From contig NZ_CP121634.1 of the NCBI RefSeq assembly GCF_029714945.1, positions 3,183,001-3,247,000 on the forward strand: a stretch of 64,000 bases of DNA, written 5' to 3'. Position numbers and translations under genes: made by a program. Positions 15,195 to 22,182 of this stretch are shown piece by piece (position 1 is the stretch's first letter; each line of letters starts with the position of its first letter). This stretch comes from Bradyrhizobium sp. CIAT3101. GTDB taxonomy: Bacteria; Pseudomonadota; Alphaproteobacteria; Rhizobiales; Xanthobacteraceae. The notes below the pieces were generated by a model. It ran no database searches. It was not told the DNA's origin and was given only the letters and a program-made list of their open reading frames with translations.

Positions 15195-18100
15195 TTACCC
15201 CAGCCGCCCCGCCGCATGCGCGAGCAGCGTGTACACCAGGCCCGTCTCCGAGGTCAGGTGGCTGCGCAGTTCCTGCGGGCCGCGGCCGTCGCGGGCGACT
15301 TCGTCGAGCAGGCGTTCGAACTCGCTGATATAGCGGTCGACCGTGCCCTTGAAGTTGCGGTCGGCGCGATACTTGCGGGCGACCTCGTCGAATGCCTTCT
15401 GGCCGGCGGGCGTGTACAGGCGCTTGGTGAAGGCCTTGTTCTCGCCGCGCTGGTAGCGATCCCACATCTCGGAGGCGAGGTTGCGGTCCATCAGCCGGCC
15501 GATGTCGAGCGACAGCGATTCCAGCGGATTGCCGTTGCTCTGCGGGGCCTGCGGCTGCGGAGCGGGTGCAGCAGTCTGGCGGCCGCGCGGGGCCTCACGA
15601 CCGGCCGGAGCAGGCTGATTGGCGTCGGTGCGGTTCAACAGGTCCGACAGCCAGCCGTCGCGGCCCGGGTCGTTGCCGTTGCTGCCGGGGGCAACCGACG
15701 GAGCCTCGGTGCGACGCGAGGAGGCCGGCATGCCGAGGTCCGGTGGCGGCAGCGTCGAGGCGCTGCCGGTGTCGCGCATGCGCGTCTCGGTGCCACGACC
15801 GCCCGTGCTTGCCATCACCGGCTCTTCCTGGCGCTGGACGGCGACGGAAGCGCGGCCCGCCGTGGTGACGTCGAGGCCGCGGCCATGCTGGGCCACGATG
15901 CGGTTGAGCTCGGCGAGCGCCTCGATCTGGTCGACGATCACCTTGCGCATCTGCGCCGTGCTCTCGGCGGCCTCCTGCGGCATCTCGAGGACGCCACGGC
16001 GCAGCTCGTTGCGGGTGGCCTCGAGCTCGTTGTGCATCTCGAACGCCATCTGCTTCATGCTGGAGACGAGGTTGCCGAACTTCTCCGTCGACTGCTTGAA
16101 CATCGCATCCGCTTCGTCGGTGGTCGTGCGGTAGATGTCGTGCATGGCCTCGATGGTCTGGCGGTGCTCTTCTTCGGACGCCGACCGCACCGCCTCGAAC
16201 TGGCGGGTGATCGCGGCCGAACCTGCGCCGGCGGTCTCCGCGACCACGCGGGCGATGTCGCGGGCACGCTCTTCGGCTGCAGCGAGCGACTCATCGAGCA
16301 GCCCGGTGAAGCGCGACAGGCGCTGGTCGAGATCGGCGGTGCGCAGGTCGATGGTGGTGACCAGCGATTCCAGCGCCGCCTTGCGTTCGGCAAGCGAGGC
16401 GGTGGTGTTCTTGTTGCTCTGCTCGACGACCTGCGCGGCATCGACGAGCGCCTTGCCGTGCGCGTCGAACTGGGTCGACAGCTCGCCGAGATCCTGCAGT
16501 GCCCGCGTGGTCTTCGTGTTGAAGACGTTGAGCTGGTCTTCCAGGTTCTGGGTCGCCGCGCCGTTGCGCGAGGTGACGTCGTTCATCGCCGAGACGAAGT
16601 CGGCGACGCGCGTCACCAGCGCCCGCTCGAGCGAGTTGAGGTTGTCGTGTGCACCGGTCAGCACCTCCTGGAGGAGGATGTTGCCTTCGCGCAGACGCTC
16701 GAACAGGGCGACCGTGTCGGTGCGCAGGATCTTGCTGGTCTCCTGCATCTCGGTGACGGCCGCAATCGACACCTGGCGCGACTGGTCGATCGCCGCACGC
16801 GAGGCCGTCTCGAGGTCCTTCAGCGACCGGCCGACCGCGCTGGTCGCGATCTCGCTCGCCGCGTTGATGGTGCGCGCGACTTCATTGCCGTTGCCCATCA
16901 TGGTCTGCGAGAATGCCGTGCCGCGCGTCTCGATCGACTTCAGCGCGTCGGAGGTGACGCGGTCGATGTCGAGCGTGAGCTGGCTGGTCTTCGAGCCGAT
17001 CGCATCCACGAGCGAGCCGCGCTTGGCGTCGATCATGTTCGAGAGGCGGTCAGCCTGCTGCTGCACGTAGGTGACGATCTCGTCGGTCTTGCCGGTCATG
17101 GCCTGGCCGAAGCTGCTCGAGGCGGAGAGCACCGAGCGCTCGACGTCGGCCGAGCTCGACTTGACCCGCGAGCTCGCCTCGTTGGAGGCGTTGATCAGCG
17201 CATTCTGGGCGTTGAGCGCGCTGGTCTGGATGTCGTTGGTCGCGTTCGCGGTCGCCGTGCTCAGCGCGCGCTCGATCTCGGTCGAGATCGTGCGGATCTG
17301 GCTTGCGGCATCCGCCGAGGTCGAGGTCAGCGAGGTCTGGGCCTCGCGTGCGCTGCTGAGGATGGTCGAGGCGGTGTCGGCACCGACAGCGGTCAGCGTG
17401 CGCTCGATGTCGGTCGTCAGCGACTTGATCTGGGTCGCTGCATCGGTCGACGCGGTGATCAGCGTGCCCTGGGCCTCGCGCACGCCGCTGGTGAGTGCCT
17501 CGATGGTGGCGCCGCCGGCGGTCGCCAGCGCGCGCTGCATCTCGGCTGCGAGCGAACGGACCTGGCCGGTTTGTTCTGCCGAGACAGCAAGAAGGGTGCT
17601 CTGGGCGTCGCGGGCGCTCGCCGTGATCGTCTCGGCGGTGGACTGGCCGACCTGCGAGAGCGAGCGATGCACTTCGGCCGCGAGCGACTTGACCTGGCTC
17701 GCAGCATCCGAGGACGCGTTGACCAGCGTGCTCTGCGCTTCGCGCGCGCCGGTCATGATGCTCTCGGCCGTCGAGGTGCCCGCCATCGAGAGCGAGCGCT
17801 GGACGTCGGAGGACAGCGCCTTGATCTGGTTGGCGGTCTCGGTCGAGGCCGCGATCAGCGTGCCCTGCGCATCGCGGGCGCCGGCCGTGATCGATTCAGC
17901 CGTGCTGGTGCCGGCGAGCGACAGCGAGCGCTGCACGTCGGCAGTGAGCGTCTTGACCTGGTTGGCGGCATCCGACGAGGCGGTGACGAGCGTGGTCTGT
18001 ACCTCGCGGGCGCCGGCCAGGATCGAGGCCGCGGTGGCCGAGCCGGCTGCGGACAGCGTGCGTTCGACGTCGGCGGCGAGCCCCTTGATCTGGTTGGAGG

Positions 18101-20918
18101 CATCGCCCGAGGCCGCGACCAGGGAGGACTGCGCCTCGCGGGCGCTGGTCAGGATCGAGTTCGCAGCGCCGGTGCCGACCGCGGTCAGCGCGCGCTCGAC
18201 CTCGGCGGAGGTCATCTTGAGCTGGGCGTTGACGTCGGAGGAGACCGTCATCAGCGACTGCTGGGCGGTGCGCGCACCGGTCTGGATCGTCTCGCTGGTG
18301 TTGACGACCAGGTTGGTGAGCGAGCGCTCGGCGTCCTCGACATGCGAGCGGATCGCGGTCGAGATCATCTCGGCGCGGGACATCATGTCCTCGCTGGCCT
18401 GGCGGCCGCTGCTCTCGATGCGGCCGGCAACGGCCTCGACACGCGAGCCGAGCAGGTCTTCGAACTGCGCCACGCGGACGTCGATGTCGTTGGCAACCGA
18501 ACCGACCTTGGTCTCGATCGCCTGGTGGATGTCCTGGAAGCGCGCCGTGACCGTGTCGGTCAGGTGCATGCTGCGGCCGTCGATGAGGTCGGCGACGCCG
18601 GTGATGCGGCGGTCGACCGCCTCGATCGCCTGCGCCGTGCCGTCCGTGAGCGTCGAGGTCAGCAAGGTGAGGCGGGTGTCGATCGACTGCACGGCCTGCG
18701 AGGCGCCGTTGGTCAAAGCGGTCGTCAGATAGGTGAGGCGGCTGTCGACGGACTCCAGCGCCTGCGATGCGCCGCTGTTGAACGTCGTCGTGAGGTGCGT
18801 CAGCCGCGTATCGATCGCCTGGATCGACTGCGAGGCGCCGTCGGTCAGCGTCGACGTGAGGTGGGTGAGGCGGGCGTCGATGGACTCGAGCGCCTGCGAT
18901 GCGCCACCCGTGAGTGTCGTCGTGAGGTGCGTCAAGCGCGTGTCGACCGACTGGATCGCCTGGGCGGCACCATCGGTCAGCGACATCGCGAGCGTGTTGA
19001 GACGCCCGTCGATGGTTTCGGTGACGGACTTGGCGCGGGTGTCGAACGACTCCTCGAGCGCGGCCACGCGGCCGATGAGCTGTTCGTCGAAAGTCCTGAT
19101 GTGGCCTTCGATCGTGCCGTCGAGGCTCGTGATCTTGCCGTTGAGCGAGGCGTCGAGATTGGTGACGCGTTCGCCGATCGTGGTCTCGAACTGCACCAGG
19201 CGCTGGTCGAGCACGGCCGTGATCGCACCGCCGTTCGAGGTGAAGCGGGTGTCGAAGTTCTCGACATAGGTCTTCAGCGACTCATGGATGTCGTGGGTGC
19301 GCTGGCCCATGCGTTCGACGATCTCGCCGCCGAAGGTCTTCACGGTGCGGTCGAACTCGGAGATGTGGCGCGTGATCAGGGCACCCAGCGTGCCGGAATC
19401 GCGGGCGAACTTCTCGACCAGCTCGGAACCCTGGTTCTTGACCAACTCGTCGAACGCGCTCATCTGCAGCGACAGCGAGTCGTGCGCGGTCTCGGTCTGG
19501 CTGACGACCTTGGCGACGAGGGTGTTGACCGTGGCGTCGAGCGCCTCGCTCGCCTTGTCGCCCGAGGTCATGATCTGGCCGGCGAGGCGGTTGCCGGCGT
19601 CGTCGATCTTGGCGGAGAGGTCGTTGGAGCGCAGCTCGAGCTCGAGCAGCAGCGAGTCCGACGAATTCTTCAAGGAGTCATGCACCTGCTCGGTGCGCTC
19701 GGAGATGCCGTCGACGATCGCGGCCGAACGCTGCTCGAACTCGCCGGTGATGCGGTCGATGCGCTCGTTCAGCATCTCGTGGACGCGGTCGGCGAGGTCG
19801 ACGAACTCGTCGTGGACGTGGCCGGTCTTGAAGTTGAGGCTGGTGGTCAGCCGCTCGCTGGCGTCGAGCACTGCGCGGGTGGTCTCGGCGCTGGCTTCCT
19901 CGAGGCGGTCGAGCAGGTCGCCGCCACGCTCGCCGAGCGCTAGGATCATGTTGTCGCCGGCGTGGCTCAGCGCACCGGTGATGTGGGCGCCGCGCTCTTC
20001 CAGCGCGCCGGTGATGGATTTCGCGACCTCGTCGACGCGCGAGGCGATCGCGTCCGAGATCAGCGCGATGTCGTGGCGGAGGTCGATCTGCACGCCGGAA
20101 ATGGCGCTGCGGACCTGCTCGGCCTGGCCGACCAGGTTGTCGCGCTGATGCGCGATGTCCTGGAGCAGGGCGCGGATGCGCACCTCGTTGTCGGAATAGG
20201 CGCGCTCGAGCGCGGCGACCTCGTTGGCGACCAGCGTCTCGAGCTCGCCGGCACGCGCGATCGCGCGCTCGATGCCGTCGCCCATCGCCGCGACCTCGCG
20301 GCGGATGGCTTGACCCACGGTGACCATGGAATCGGACGCAGAGCCTTCCGGCTCGGAGAATCGGATCGCGACCTGCGCCATCGCCTGCGCGACCTGGCTC
20401 ATCTGCTGGCCGCGCCAGACCAGGCTGGCGAGGAAGTAGAACAGCATGATCGGCGCAAAGAACATCGTGGCGAGGCCGGCGATCGCCAGCACGCCGCCGC
20501 TCTCGCCCATGGCCGCCCGGATCGAGGGCAGGAAGCCGACCGTCAGCGCGGCGCAGGCCGCAAGCCAGACGACGGTGAAGATGGTCGCGCCGGTGTAGAT
20601 GTTGCGGGCAGGGCGGCCCGTCTGCAGCGACTGGAGCAGCTGGCCGATGGTCTCGCGGTCGTCATTGGCGGCGCGGCGCGAGGCGCGCGGTTCCTCGATC
20701 GGATCGAACACGGCGCGCTCGTTGGCGGCCGGCCGTGGCTCGAATGTCGGCTCGTCGAACGCGGGAGGTGTCGGGGGCGCCACCTGCGGCGCCGTTTCGT
20801 TGCGCATCGATGCGTTGCGGCTGGTGTCGGCAGCCGTGTCGCTGATGTTGAGGGCTTCCTGGATCGCAGAAAGCGCAACTTCTGTGGGGTCTTTGACCTT
20901 CTTGGGAGTGTTGGCCAT
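15195..20918 (-). CDS. Giant coiled-coil membrane protein, GPR/RgsE-like polar growth factor
   Basis: This 1907-residue protein has a Pro-rich cytoplasmic N-terminus, two transmembrane helices (~108-130 and ~141-168), then some 1600 residues of apolipoprotein-like amphipathic helix, and a conserved globular C-terminus (~1795-1907, with SEMWDRYQRGENKAFTKRLYT). This architecture matches GROWTH POLE RING protein of Agrobacterium and RgsE of Sinorhizobium, which form a ring at the growing pole and are needed for rod shape and unipolar growth. Internal repeats are exact in length: six 22-residue units (650-781) and nine 44-residue units (882-1277), both multiples of 11 (hendecads). The ATG start MANTPKKVK at 20918 precedes the N-terminal region directly. 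It is divergent from an Hpt gene, with a CtrA-type box about 180 bp upstream. The homology is by architecture, not alignment. Confidence 0.85.
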   Translation of the reverse strand: MANTPKKVKDPTEVALSAIQEALNISDTAADTSRNASMRNETAPQVAPPTPPAFDEPTFEPRPAANERAVFDPIEEPRASRRAANDDRETIGQLLQSLQTGRPARNIYTGATIFTVVWLAACAALTVGFLPSIRAAMGESGGVLAIAGLATMFFAPIMLFYFLASLVWRGQQMSQVAQAMAQVAIRFSEPEGSASDSMVTVGQAIRREVAAMGDGIERAIARAGELETLVANEVAALERAYSDNEVRIRALLQDIAHQRDNLVGQAEQVRSAISGVQIDLRHDIALISDAIASRVDEVAKSITGALEERGAHITGALSHAGDNMILALGERGGDLLDRLEEASAETTRAVLDASERLTTSLNFKTGHVHDEFVDLADRVHEMLNERIDRITGEFEQRSAAIVDGISERTEQVHDSLKNSSDSLLLELELRSNDLSAKIDDAGNRLAGQIMTSGDKASEALDATVNTLVAKVVSQTETAHDSLSLQMSAFDELVKNQGSELVEKFARDSGTLGALITRHISEFDRTVKTFGGEIVERMGQRTHDIHESLKTYVENFDTRFTSNGGAITAVLDQRLVQFETTIGERVTNLDASLNGKITSLDGTIEGHIRTFDEQLIGRVAALEESFDTRAKSVTETIDGRLNTLAMSLTDGAAQAIQSVDTRLTHLTTTLTGGASQALESIDARLTHLTSTLTDGASQSIQAIDTRLTHLTTTFNSGASQALESVDSRLTYLTTALTNGASQAVQSIDTRLTLLTSTLTDGTAQAIEAVDRRITGVADLIDGRSMHLTDTVTARFQDIHQAIETKVGSVANDIDVRVAQFEDLLGSRVEAVAGRIESSGRQASEDMMSRAEMISTAIRSHVEDAERSLTNLVVNTSETIQTGARTAQQSLMTVSSDVNAQLKMTSAEVERALTAVGTGAANSILTSAREAQSSLVAASGDASNQIKGLAADVERTLSAAGSATAASILAGAREVQTTLVTASSDAANQVKTLTADVQRSLSLAGTSTAESITAGARDAQGTLIAASTETANQIKALSSDVQRSLSMAGTSTAESIMTGAREAQSTLVNASSDAASQVKSLAAEVHRSLSQVGQSTAETITASARDAQSTLLAVSAEQTGQVRSLAAEMQRALATAGGATIEALTSGVREAQGTLITASTDAATQIKSLTTDIERTLTAVGADTASTILSSAREAQTSLTSTSADAASQIRTISTEIERALSTATANATNDIQTSALNAQNALINASNEASSRVKSSSADVERSVLSASSSFGQAMTGKTDEIVTYVQQQADRLSNMIDAKRGSLVDAIGSKTSQLTLDIDRVTSDALKSIETRGTAFSQTMMGNGNEVARTINAASEIATSAVGRSLKDLETASRAAIDQSRQVSIAAVTEMQETSKILRTDTVALFERLREGNILLQEVLTGAHDNLNSLERALVTRVADFVSAMNDVTSRNGAATQNLEDQLNVFNTKTTRALQDLGELSTQFDAHGKALVDAAQVVEQSNKNTTASLAERKAALESLVTTIDLRTADLDQRLSRFTGLLDESLAAAEERARDIARVVAETAGAGSAAITRQFEAVRSASEEEHRQTIEAMHDIYRTTTDEADAMFKQSTEKFGNLVSSMKQMAFEMHNELEATRNELRRGVLEMPQEAAESTAQMRKVIVDQIEALAELNRIVAQHGRGLDVTTAGRASVAVQRQEEPVMASTGGRGTETRMRDTGSASTLPPPDLGMPASSRRTEAPSVAPGSNGNDPGRDGWLSDLLNRTDANQPAPAGREAPRGRQTAAPAPQPQAPQSNGNPLESLSLDIGRLMDRNLASEMWDRYQRGENKAFTKRLYTPAGQKAFDEVARKYRADRNFKGTVDRYISEFERLLDEVARDGRGPQELRSHLTSETGLVYTLLAHAAGRLG
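17088..18275 (-). repeat. Nine tandem 132-bp (44-residue) coding repeats
   Basis: Within the GPR-like gene, residues 882-1277 form nine consecutive units of exactly 44 residues. Each opens with a variant of AREAQSTL and contains a central D/E-V-x-R-x-L segment (ADVERTLS, SDVQRSLS, AEVHRSLS). Units are diverged in sequence but keep length without any indel. 44 equals four hendecads, giving a near-straight helical rod. Confidence 0.9.
18576..18971 (-). repeat. Six tandem 66-bp (22-residue) coding repeats
   Basis: Residues 650-781 of the GPR-like protein form six units of 22 residues patterned GASQAxxSxDTRLTxLTxTL, the last one degenerate (GTAQAIEAVDRRITGVADLI). The 22-residue period is that of exchangeable apolipoproteins and may explain the apolipoprotein-like domain assignment of this family. 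Confidence 0.88.
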
Positions 20919-21311
20919 GTTCAGTCCGAGCCCTCGTTACTTGTACGCGTCCCCCCGCGAGCCCTGCGCGCTGCGCAAGCCCACAGACCGGATCATGCCG
21001 CTTGCGCGGATCTCCGAGCCGTCCCCACCCGGACGGCTTGTCCGCCAATTTCCGCAACATCCTATTGGCAGAGCGTCGCGAATGAAATGCCCGCGATTAA
21101 TACAATCTTAATCATCGTTAACAGGATCGCGCCGTAACACCTTAGGCCTAAATGAAATTCTCCACGGAACTCGGTCGATTGCGGCAACTTTTCGTCAATA
21201 AACGGGCGGATTTGCGTAAAACGGCGCAAACACTTCGTTAACCATTTCCATGCTTCGGTGGGGGCGAACCGCCGGACCGGCGGACCGTCGCGCGATGCCG
21301 GGGCCTGCGCC
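20919..21311. other. Divergent regulatory region between GPR-like and Hpt genes
   Basis: These 393 bp contain no credible gene. They hold the CtrA-type box at 21097-21111 with an extra TTAA half-site at 21118, and a further GTTAACC at about 21238. The stretch is clearly more AT-rich than the flanking genes, as expected for promoters serving both directions. Confidence 0.6.
21097..21121. promoter_or_regulatory. CtrA-type binding site (TTAA-N7-TTAA) with extra half-site
   Basis: TTAA at 21097-21100 and TTAA at 21108-21111 are separated by 7 nt (TACAATC), the full consensus of the alphaproteobacterial cell-cycle regulator CtrA. A third TTAA follows at 21118-21121. The site lies about 180 bp upstream of the GPR-like start and about 200 bp upstream of the Hpt start. 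Actual binding is inference. Confidence 0.6.
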
Positions 21312-21686
21312 ATGACGCCTGAACTGCAACGGATGGACTGGATGCCCTCGCCCCCGCTTGCGCCCATCGACAGCCCCCTCGACCTCGACCACCTCGCGCG
21401 GATGACGCTCGGCGATGCCGAGCTGGAGCAGGAAGTGCTCGCGATGTTCGCCGAGCAGGCGGTCCGGCTGATCGCGGCGATGACGGCGCTGCCGGCCGAG
21501 ACCGGCGCGCTCGCGCACAAGCTCAAGGGCTCGGCGCGTGGGATCGGCGCCTTTGCGGTGGCGGATGCCGCCGCCAGCCTGGAAACCGCGATCCGGATCG
21601 GCCACAACCAGCCCCACGCCTTCGCCGCGCTGAAAGAGGCGGTCGCCGAGGTTCGCGCGGCCATCGCGAGCATCCTCAAGCACTAG
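21312..21686 (+). CDS. Single-domain Hpt phosphotransfer protein
   Basis: This 124-residue protein is little more than a histidine phosphotransfer domain. The motif LAHKLKGSARGIGA carries the phospho-accepting His within HxLKGSA, in a four-helix-bundle context (DLDHLARMTLGDAELEQEVLAMF before it, HAFAALKEAVAEVRAAI after it). Such proteins shuttle phosphate between hybrid kinases and response regulators. The start at ATG 21312 (MTPELQRMDW) is preferred, though GTG 21258 is in frame and neither has a clear ribosome site. No kinase is adjacent; the partners are unknown. It is divergent from the GPR-like gene and shares its CtrA-type box. Confidence 0.83.
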   Translation: MTPELQRMDWMPSPPLAPIDSPLDLDHLARMTLGDAELEQEVLAMFAEQAVRLIAAMTALPAETGALAHKLKGSARGIGAFAVADAAASLETAIRIGHNQPHAFAALKEAVAEVRAAIASILKH

Positions 21687-21861: not shown

Positions 21862-22182
21862 ATGGCCAAAATTCACTTTGTCGACCACAAGGGCGAAACC
21901 CGCACGGTGGATGTCGAGAACGGCGCGACCGTGATGGAAGCCGCCATCCGCAACAGCATTCCCGGCATCGAAGCCGAATGCGGCGGCGCCTGCGCCTGCG
22001 CGACCTGTCATGTCTATGTCGACGAAGCCTGGCGCGAGAAGGTTGGCAGCCCGACGCCGATGGAAGAGGACATGCTCGACTTCGGCTTCGACGTGCGCCC
22101 GAACTCGCGCCTGTCCTGCCAGATCAAGGTCGCCGACGAGCTCGACGGGCTCGTGGTGTCGACGCCGGAACGTCAGGCCTGA
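21862..22182 (+). CDS. [2Fe-2S] ferredoxin, adrenodoxin type
   Basis: This 106-residue electron carrier binds a 2Fe-2S cluster through C40, C46, C49 (C-x5-C-x2-C in [11 protein letters not shown]) and C86 (LSCQI). The MEEDMLDF segment between these sites is typical of adrenodoxin or putidaredoxin-like ferredoxins that feed cytochromes P450 or Fe-S biogenesis. An additional Cys44 lies within the cluster loop. ATG 21862 gives the usual N-terminus. A ferredoxin-NADP reductase gene lies 0.7 kb downstream on the same strand, with a thioesterase gene on the other strand in between, so the two may be physiological partners. Confidence 0.92.

Follow-up and report, generated by a model that had tools for sequence, protein, structure and literature searches.

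The nine tandem 44-residue repeats encoded in the window, by which I mean the whole 64,000-nucleotide stretch of DNA analysed here, belong to a much longer rod, and changes in the length of this rod nearly always keep its helical phase. The array is probably a section of a length-plastic, rotation-locked hendecad coiled-coil rod, of which the periodicity is observed and the helix predicted. A preliminary description of this DNA had suggested that register matters in the repeats, which keep their length while their sequence drifts. As read from the sequences compared here, that idea is correct, and more broadly so than was proposed. The family is known, and repeats have been noted in passing in RgsE; what is new, as far as the literature found shows, is the rule that the rod changes by whole helical turns.

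The gene, its family and its neighbours

As judged from its sequence, the protein is a GPR/RgsE orthologue, a polar-growth scaffold and a member of a known family, since its membrane helices, proline-free rod, C-terminal domain and Hpt and ferredoxin neighbours (Table 1) agree on this assignment. The 9.37-Mb genome holds one match to the 1,907-residue protein. RgsE of S. meliloti, with a published length of 2,089 residues, is described as the GPR homologue (PMC7327166). Agrobacterium GPR is reported to form a hexameric ring at the growing pole, and rod shape to be lost on depletion of GPR or RgsE (PMC8262873, PMC7327166).

Table 1. Features of the gpr/rgsE locus, in positions of the window
Feature	Position	Strand	Basis
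gpr/rgsE orthologue, 1,907 aa	15195..20918	-	ORF and translation, RgsE homology, PF01442 (E 3.5e-59)
Predicted membrane helix 1, residues 107-134	20517..20600	-	Kyte-Doolittle, 19-residue windows
Predicted membrane helix 2, residues 140-168	20415..20501	-	Kyte-Doolittle, 19-residue windows
Proline-free rod, residues 191-1646 (1,456 residues)	15981..20348	-	Proline positions
Single hendecad phase, about residues 266-1387	16758..20123	-	Hydrophobic-moment phase, 44-residue windows
Second tandem array, 22-residue units, about residues 640-771	18606..19001	-	Repeat detection
Nine tandem 44-residue (4-hendecad) units, residues 882-1277	17088..18275	-	
Conserved C-terminal domain, residues 1790-1907, predicted mostly helical	15198..15551	-	
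Hpt-domain gene, divergent from gpr, conserved neighbour	21258..21686	+	PF01627
2Fe-2S ferredoxin gene, conserved neighbour	21862..22182	+	PF00111

The family comparison was made against one S. meliloti locus and 76 Rhizobiaceae loci. The RgsE sequence used was a 2,089-residue protein annotated 'kinesin' from S. meliloti strain Ak57 (3.7-Mb record CP090106.1). The N-terminal region is 41% identical to RgsE over residues 61-280 (E 3e-45) and the C-terminal domain 52% identical over 114 residues without a gap (E 1e-37), both as single-subject E-values. The paired N-terminal hydrophobic segments have counterparts at residues 117-143 and 152-186 of RgsE. PF01442, which has been reported for GPR (PMC8262873), matches both the window protein and RgsE; the summed score on the whole protein is 200 bits, above the curated cut-off of 90, while in a six-frame search no single stretch exceeded the cut-off (best 76 bits). 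The homology that the preliminary description had drawn from size, membrane helices and helical repeats is thus confirmed by identity at both ends and by a common gene order. As for the record CP090106.1 itself, it is titled pSymB, but the presence of rgsE, folP and genes for cytochrome bc1 suggests a chromosome under a wrong label.

In the window and in S. meliloti, gpr adjoins a divergent Hpt-domain gene, beyond which lies a gene for a ferredoxin. The Rhizobiaceae sequences used throughout this study are the best 80 of at least 569 confirmed matches, are biased to relatives of the Shinella query, and were usable in 78 cases. Among the 76 loci of this best-matching set that are longer than 15 kb, the Hpt match lies upstream of gpr on the opposite strand in 72, the ferredoxin match in 73, and both in this order in 69. 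The divergent arrangement points to a possible phosphorelay link to pole growth.

Every one of the 60 genomes of the genus, including that of the window, has a match to the N-terminal region, and the C-terminal domain is present in 142 of the 150 order genomes that were sampled. The order-wide ORFs ending in this domain are mostly 850 to 2,940 residues long, some of them cut by contig ends. A model of the C-terminal domain (mean pLDDT 75) had no fold match in the PDB at E 0.001 or better, and the best hit of a profile search of solved structures had an E of 0.014. Antisense to gpr there is an open frame (15216-19943, plus strand, 1,575 aa) without a Pfam match, probably a shadow ORF arising from the GC-rich and repetitive sequence of the gene.

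Periodicity of the rod and of the nine-unit array

The hendecad (11-residue) periodicity that had been suggested for the repeats is very strong in the whole rod. Over residues 204-1640, the spectral power of hydrophobicity was 98 at a period of 11/3 residues versus 1.2 at 3.5. The direction of the hydrophobic moment stayed between -84 and -36 degrees in all 44-residue windows starting at residues 266 to 1344. Because this direction is constant, a single register extends over about 1,100 residues, the nine units included; beyond it, from about residue 1388 to 1500, the phase slips. In the units of the genus, the stripe is made of mainly A/S/G at position a, A/V/T at d and L/V/I at h. A hydrophobic stripe at period 11/3 with an a/d/h core is the pattern by which a hendecad coiled coil is recognised, and, going by its residues, the stripe is narrow and coiled-coil-like.

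The array itself fills its span exactly with nine units and zero indels, as the preliminary description had stated. At a lag of 44 residues its identity reaches 0.47, while 2,000 shuffles gave 0.107 on average and 0.156 at most. The units share on average 44% identity in pairs (range 25-70%), and identity is highest at hendecad positions a (0.66) and h (0.67), followed by d (0.52), e (0.52) and k (0.42), with 0.17-0.41 at b, c, f, g, i and j. The claim that the units differ at most surface positions therefore holds roughly, but some non-core positions (Q5, S12 and R2) are strongly conserved over 368 distinct units of the genus. The DNA of the array also shows tandem repeats, of 132 bases. A single-sequence AlphaFold model of the array was helical nearly throughout, at low confidence (mean pLDDT 59.5, pTM 0.26).

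Length changes within the genus and across the order

Is the number of units constant? I compared 60 proteins of the genus. Eight incomplete ones (G045, G033, G006, G003, G051, G042, G016 and G030) were left out, as was G046, in which runs of N interrupt the array; the complete set thus holds 51 proteins. In a scan with a profile made from the window's own units, which may miss distant copies, the proteins have 4 to 13 units, spaced by 44 residues throughout except for a few spacings of 55 and 66 in three proteins. Nine is the commonest number among the nearest relatives. Very similar proteins differ: G038 and G039 (98.5% identical) as well as G040 and G056 (97.5%) are one 44-residue unit apart, and G018 and G034 (97.0%) differ by one 44-residue plus one 22-residue unit. 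On a tree built without the repeat region, the unit number changed at least 16 times and the rod length at least 32 times, both counts being approximate since 16 of the 48 inner branches are weakly supported. In the best-matching Rhizobiaceae set (78 proteins), the rod length ranges from 1,188 to 2,356 residues. The stretch of gpr following the array, residues 1411-1630 (16029-16688), is unlike it in having a constant length in 51 of 52 proteins of the genus.

The phase, in contrast to the number of units, is conserved in Bradyrhizobium. The distance between anchors at residues 204 and 1411, a measure independent of gap placement, differs from that of the window protein by -297 to +128 residues. 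In 47 of the 51 proteins (47 of 52 with G046 counted in) the difference is an exact multiple of 11 or zero, while the remaining four form one clade whose rod is offset by 7. The rod length modulo 11 changed once on the tree, as against the 32 or more changes in rod length. By a second, longer length measure, 46 proteins fall into one modulo-11 class and five into another; the additional off-class protein, G043, has lost four residues near the C-terminal end. Likewise, in 25 disjoint pairs with an identity of 75% or more, 30 of the 31 indels within the rod were 11, 22, 33, 44, 88 or 220 residues long. These results bear out that register matters: length changes keep the helical phase.

Eleven residues make three helical turns and 18 residues make five, so any length of the form 11a+18b closes whole turns. 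A single modulo-11 length class for the whole order was rejected: 43 proteins outside the genus fall into ten classes (class 0 with 13 proteins, class 4 with 12, the others with 18), and the rods of the best-matching Rhizobiaceae set occupy seven of the eleven. The form 11a+18b was then picked post hoc, after the data had been seen, and the counts that follow are not independent of one another. Among disjoint close pairs, 80 of 83 rod indels fit the form, the exceptions being 4 residues (twice) and 15, compared with 2 of 188 indels outside the rod; the rod counts tilt toward the rule, as in-phase gaps score better in periodic sequence. In the best-matching Rhizobiaceae set (28 disjoint pairs, at least 75% identity), 50 of 52 rod indels fit, or 46 of 48 of those up to 66 residues, versus 2 of 111 non-rod indels. 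The commonest rod indels there were 29, 11, 44, 22, 33, 66, 18, 58 and 55 residues. In the pairs of the genus, none of 77 non-rod indels fit.

The same form is found in the tandem units, called at 55% identity or more and at lengths up to 66 residues. All 222 units called in 169 GPR-family proteins fit it: 77 of 77 from 51 proteins of the genus, 54 of 54 from 40 proteins of the order, and 91 of 91 from the 78 proteins of the best-matching Rhizobiaceae set. The 40 order proteins were picked by hand among the 142 matches, with most taken from the upper half of their list. The lengths called across the lineages were 11, 18, 22, 29, 33, 36, 40, 44, 55, 62 and 66. For reference, the form is satisfied by 16 of the 61 possible lengths between 6 and 66 residues, and none of the other 45 was called as a tandem unit in these 169 proteins. 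Units longer than 66 residues were not counted as evidence, since nearly all large integers fit. At greater distances the pattern loosens; within-family pairs of the order below about 70% identity (taken from the 21 of 40 proteins matched by the N-terminal pattern) contain off-rule gaps such as 37, 19, 25, 26, 14, 5, 67 and 78, and one pair at 68% identity contains a 458-residue gap.

Tandem duplication and contraction are the main mutational route, as the DNA of 56 of the 83 rod indels matches an adjacent stretch with an identity of 70% or more. Recombination among existing units yields only multiples of those units, so that selection can be tested only on how new unit lengths arise. In a control with 2,404 flanking ORFs there were two repeat calls, both at the same place and of the off-rule length 34, which hints, thinly with two calls, that repeat calling is unbiased toward the rule. 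No description of the whole-turn rule was found in a literature search, confined to main texts and largely to open papers, on hendecads together with polar growth, Rhizobiales or apolipoprotein.

It is conceivable, although rather doubtful, that rods throughout the order change by whole turns only, with the rod setting, across hundreds of turns, the rotation of its ends for ring assembly and its length tuned in each lineage, perhaps to cell size. With one fewest-contig genome per family and without phylogenetic correction, ORF length correlates with genome size at a rho of 0.54 over 36 families, or 0.64 without family f45, whose ORF of 306 residues looks broken; 34 hand-picked families had given 0.69. 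ORFs of 846-939 aa occur in four genomes of 1.3-1.4 Mb.

Readings of the rod and their meaning

The reading that I favour may be put as follows. The nine-unit array would be the variable-length part of one very long, proline-free predicted helix, in which a hydrophobic stripe returns every 11 residues to the same side for about 1,100 residues. Its units would be gained and lost through tandem duplication and contraction of the DNA. Nearly all length changes that persist close whole helical turns, a pattern that is observed and behind which selection may stand. In a parallel hendecad coiled coil, the strands, or the rod and its partners, would pack along one stripe; a whole-turn insertion would only make the rod longer, while any other insertion would rotate the distal part and disrupt the packing. 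The membrane anchor at the N-terminus would then stay in a fixed rotational relation to the C-terminal domain at a tunable distance, and, to go by the GPR/RgsE literature, the whole may serve as a ring scaffold at the growth pole.

A coiled coil is favoured because the a/d/h stripe suits it and because whole-turn insertions are harmless in such a rod. Counting against it, the composition of the array (20% large hydrophobics, 54% A/G/S/T) is ill suited to a strong coiled coil and resembles that of the perilipin-4 membrane helix; the phase is not kept to the end of the rod and is looser throughout in RgsE; and the anchor-to-anchor length falls into several modulo-11 classes across families. The protein may instead be a giant amphipathic 11/3 helix with a weak stripe, lying on the inner face of the growing pole in the manner of apolipoproteins or perilipin-4, with one phase needed for the entire stripe to face lipid. 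As the phase pattern fits both, the evolutionary pattern alone cannot choose between them. By my own calculation, 33-residue windows of the array have a hydrophobic moment of 0.286, a hydrophobic fraction of 0.40, 0.003 aromatics and 0.16 charged residues, near the Heliquest values for perilipin-4 of 0.257, 0.35, 0.002 and 0.15 (PMC5889406 Table 1). The PF01442 match points the same way, and a lipid role is favoured by the authors of the GPR domain paper (PMC8262873). However, the rod has a net negative charge, which per 33 residues amounts to -0.66 for the array and to -2.41 for residues 270-640 and is unfavourable on an anionic bacterial membrane, whereas the perilipin-4 helix is net positive (PMC5889406). 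The rod has no proline in 1,456 residues, as against the seven that break the helix of apolipoprotein A-I (PMC5889406 Table 1), and small residues occupy a and d of its narrow stripe. On this evidence the membrane-lying helix is possible but unlikely.

Regular lengths could also come solely from unequal recombination among DNA repeats, the register having no function. The resemblance of 56 of 83 indels to adjacent DNA agrees with this, and the array units themselves provide the common steps of 44, 29 and 22. Such turnover leaves unexplained that all unit lengths fit whole turns across lineages, and the single phase also spans stretches without strong repeats; the flanking-ORF control, with its sole length of 34, has too few calls to be strong. 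Neutral turnover as the whole explanation is thus improbable. The preliminary description had further proposed that the rod is a fixed-length ruler, nine repeats measuring one membrane-to-ring distance. The units of the window are indeed free of indels, and nine is the usual number in the closest relatives. But large variation in repeat number was the observation that the preliminary description itself had named as incompatible with a ruler, and 4 to 13 units with at least 16 changes in the genus, differences between proteins 97.0-98.5% identical, and the twofold range of the best-matching Rhizobiaceae rods are such variation; the ruler is refuted and scarcely credible in this form.

The window protein resembles RgsE (SMc00190) in its two membrane helices, long PF01442 rod, C-terminal domain and Hpt and ferredoxin neighbours. 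They differ in that the hydrophobic phase of RgsE drifts from about residue 960-1,070, while the window rod is in one phase to about 1387, and in unit lengths, 44 and 22 here versus 29 and 106 in RgsE. The 29-residue tandem array of RgsE starts at about residue 1084, near the phase drift, and is possibly a section of different helical pitch. RgsE is termed 'repeat-containing' in the methods of PMC7327166, and the words 'repeat' and 'heptad' are absent from the main text of the GPR domain paper (PMC8262873). Perilipin-4 repeats a 33-residue unit 29 times 'entirely without deletions or insertions' (PMC5889406), and is like the rod in its tandem multiples of 11 residues, weak moment, few aromatics and little charge. 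This is a likeness of working and not a claim of homology; perilipin-4 is a human lipid-droplet protein with a net positive helix, whereas GPR combines true membrane helices with a rod of net negative charge. Apolipoproteins A-I and A-IV share the 11/22-residue amphipathic periodicity and the PF01442 match, but their proline-punctuated helices were not found in residues 191-1646 of the window protein. Bacterial chemoreceptors have length classes that differ by heptad indels in a hairpin rod. There, too, rod length evolves in quanta of the coiled-coil repeat, although the quanta are heptads, while the GPR rod has hendecads and 18-residue steps.

GPR/RgsE is a scaffold central to unipolar growth but structurally unexplained; its rod has so far been read mainly as apolipoprotein domains that need to fold up. 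An extended helical domain of 1,700 residues was put at 600 nm in the GPR paper (PMC8262873); by my own arithmetic, at 0.15 nm per residue, such a helix would be about 255 nm long. The evolutionary record suggests that the length of the rod is free and its rotation constrained. The phase rule predicts that deletions of 44, 22 or 11 residues would be harmless and that deletions of, for example, 5 or 8 residues would be harmful. The natural variants in rod length offer a means to ask whether ring size or cell width tracks the rod.
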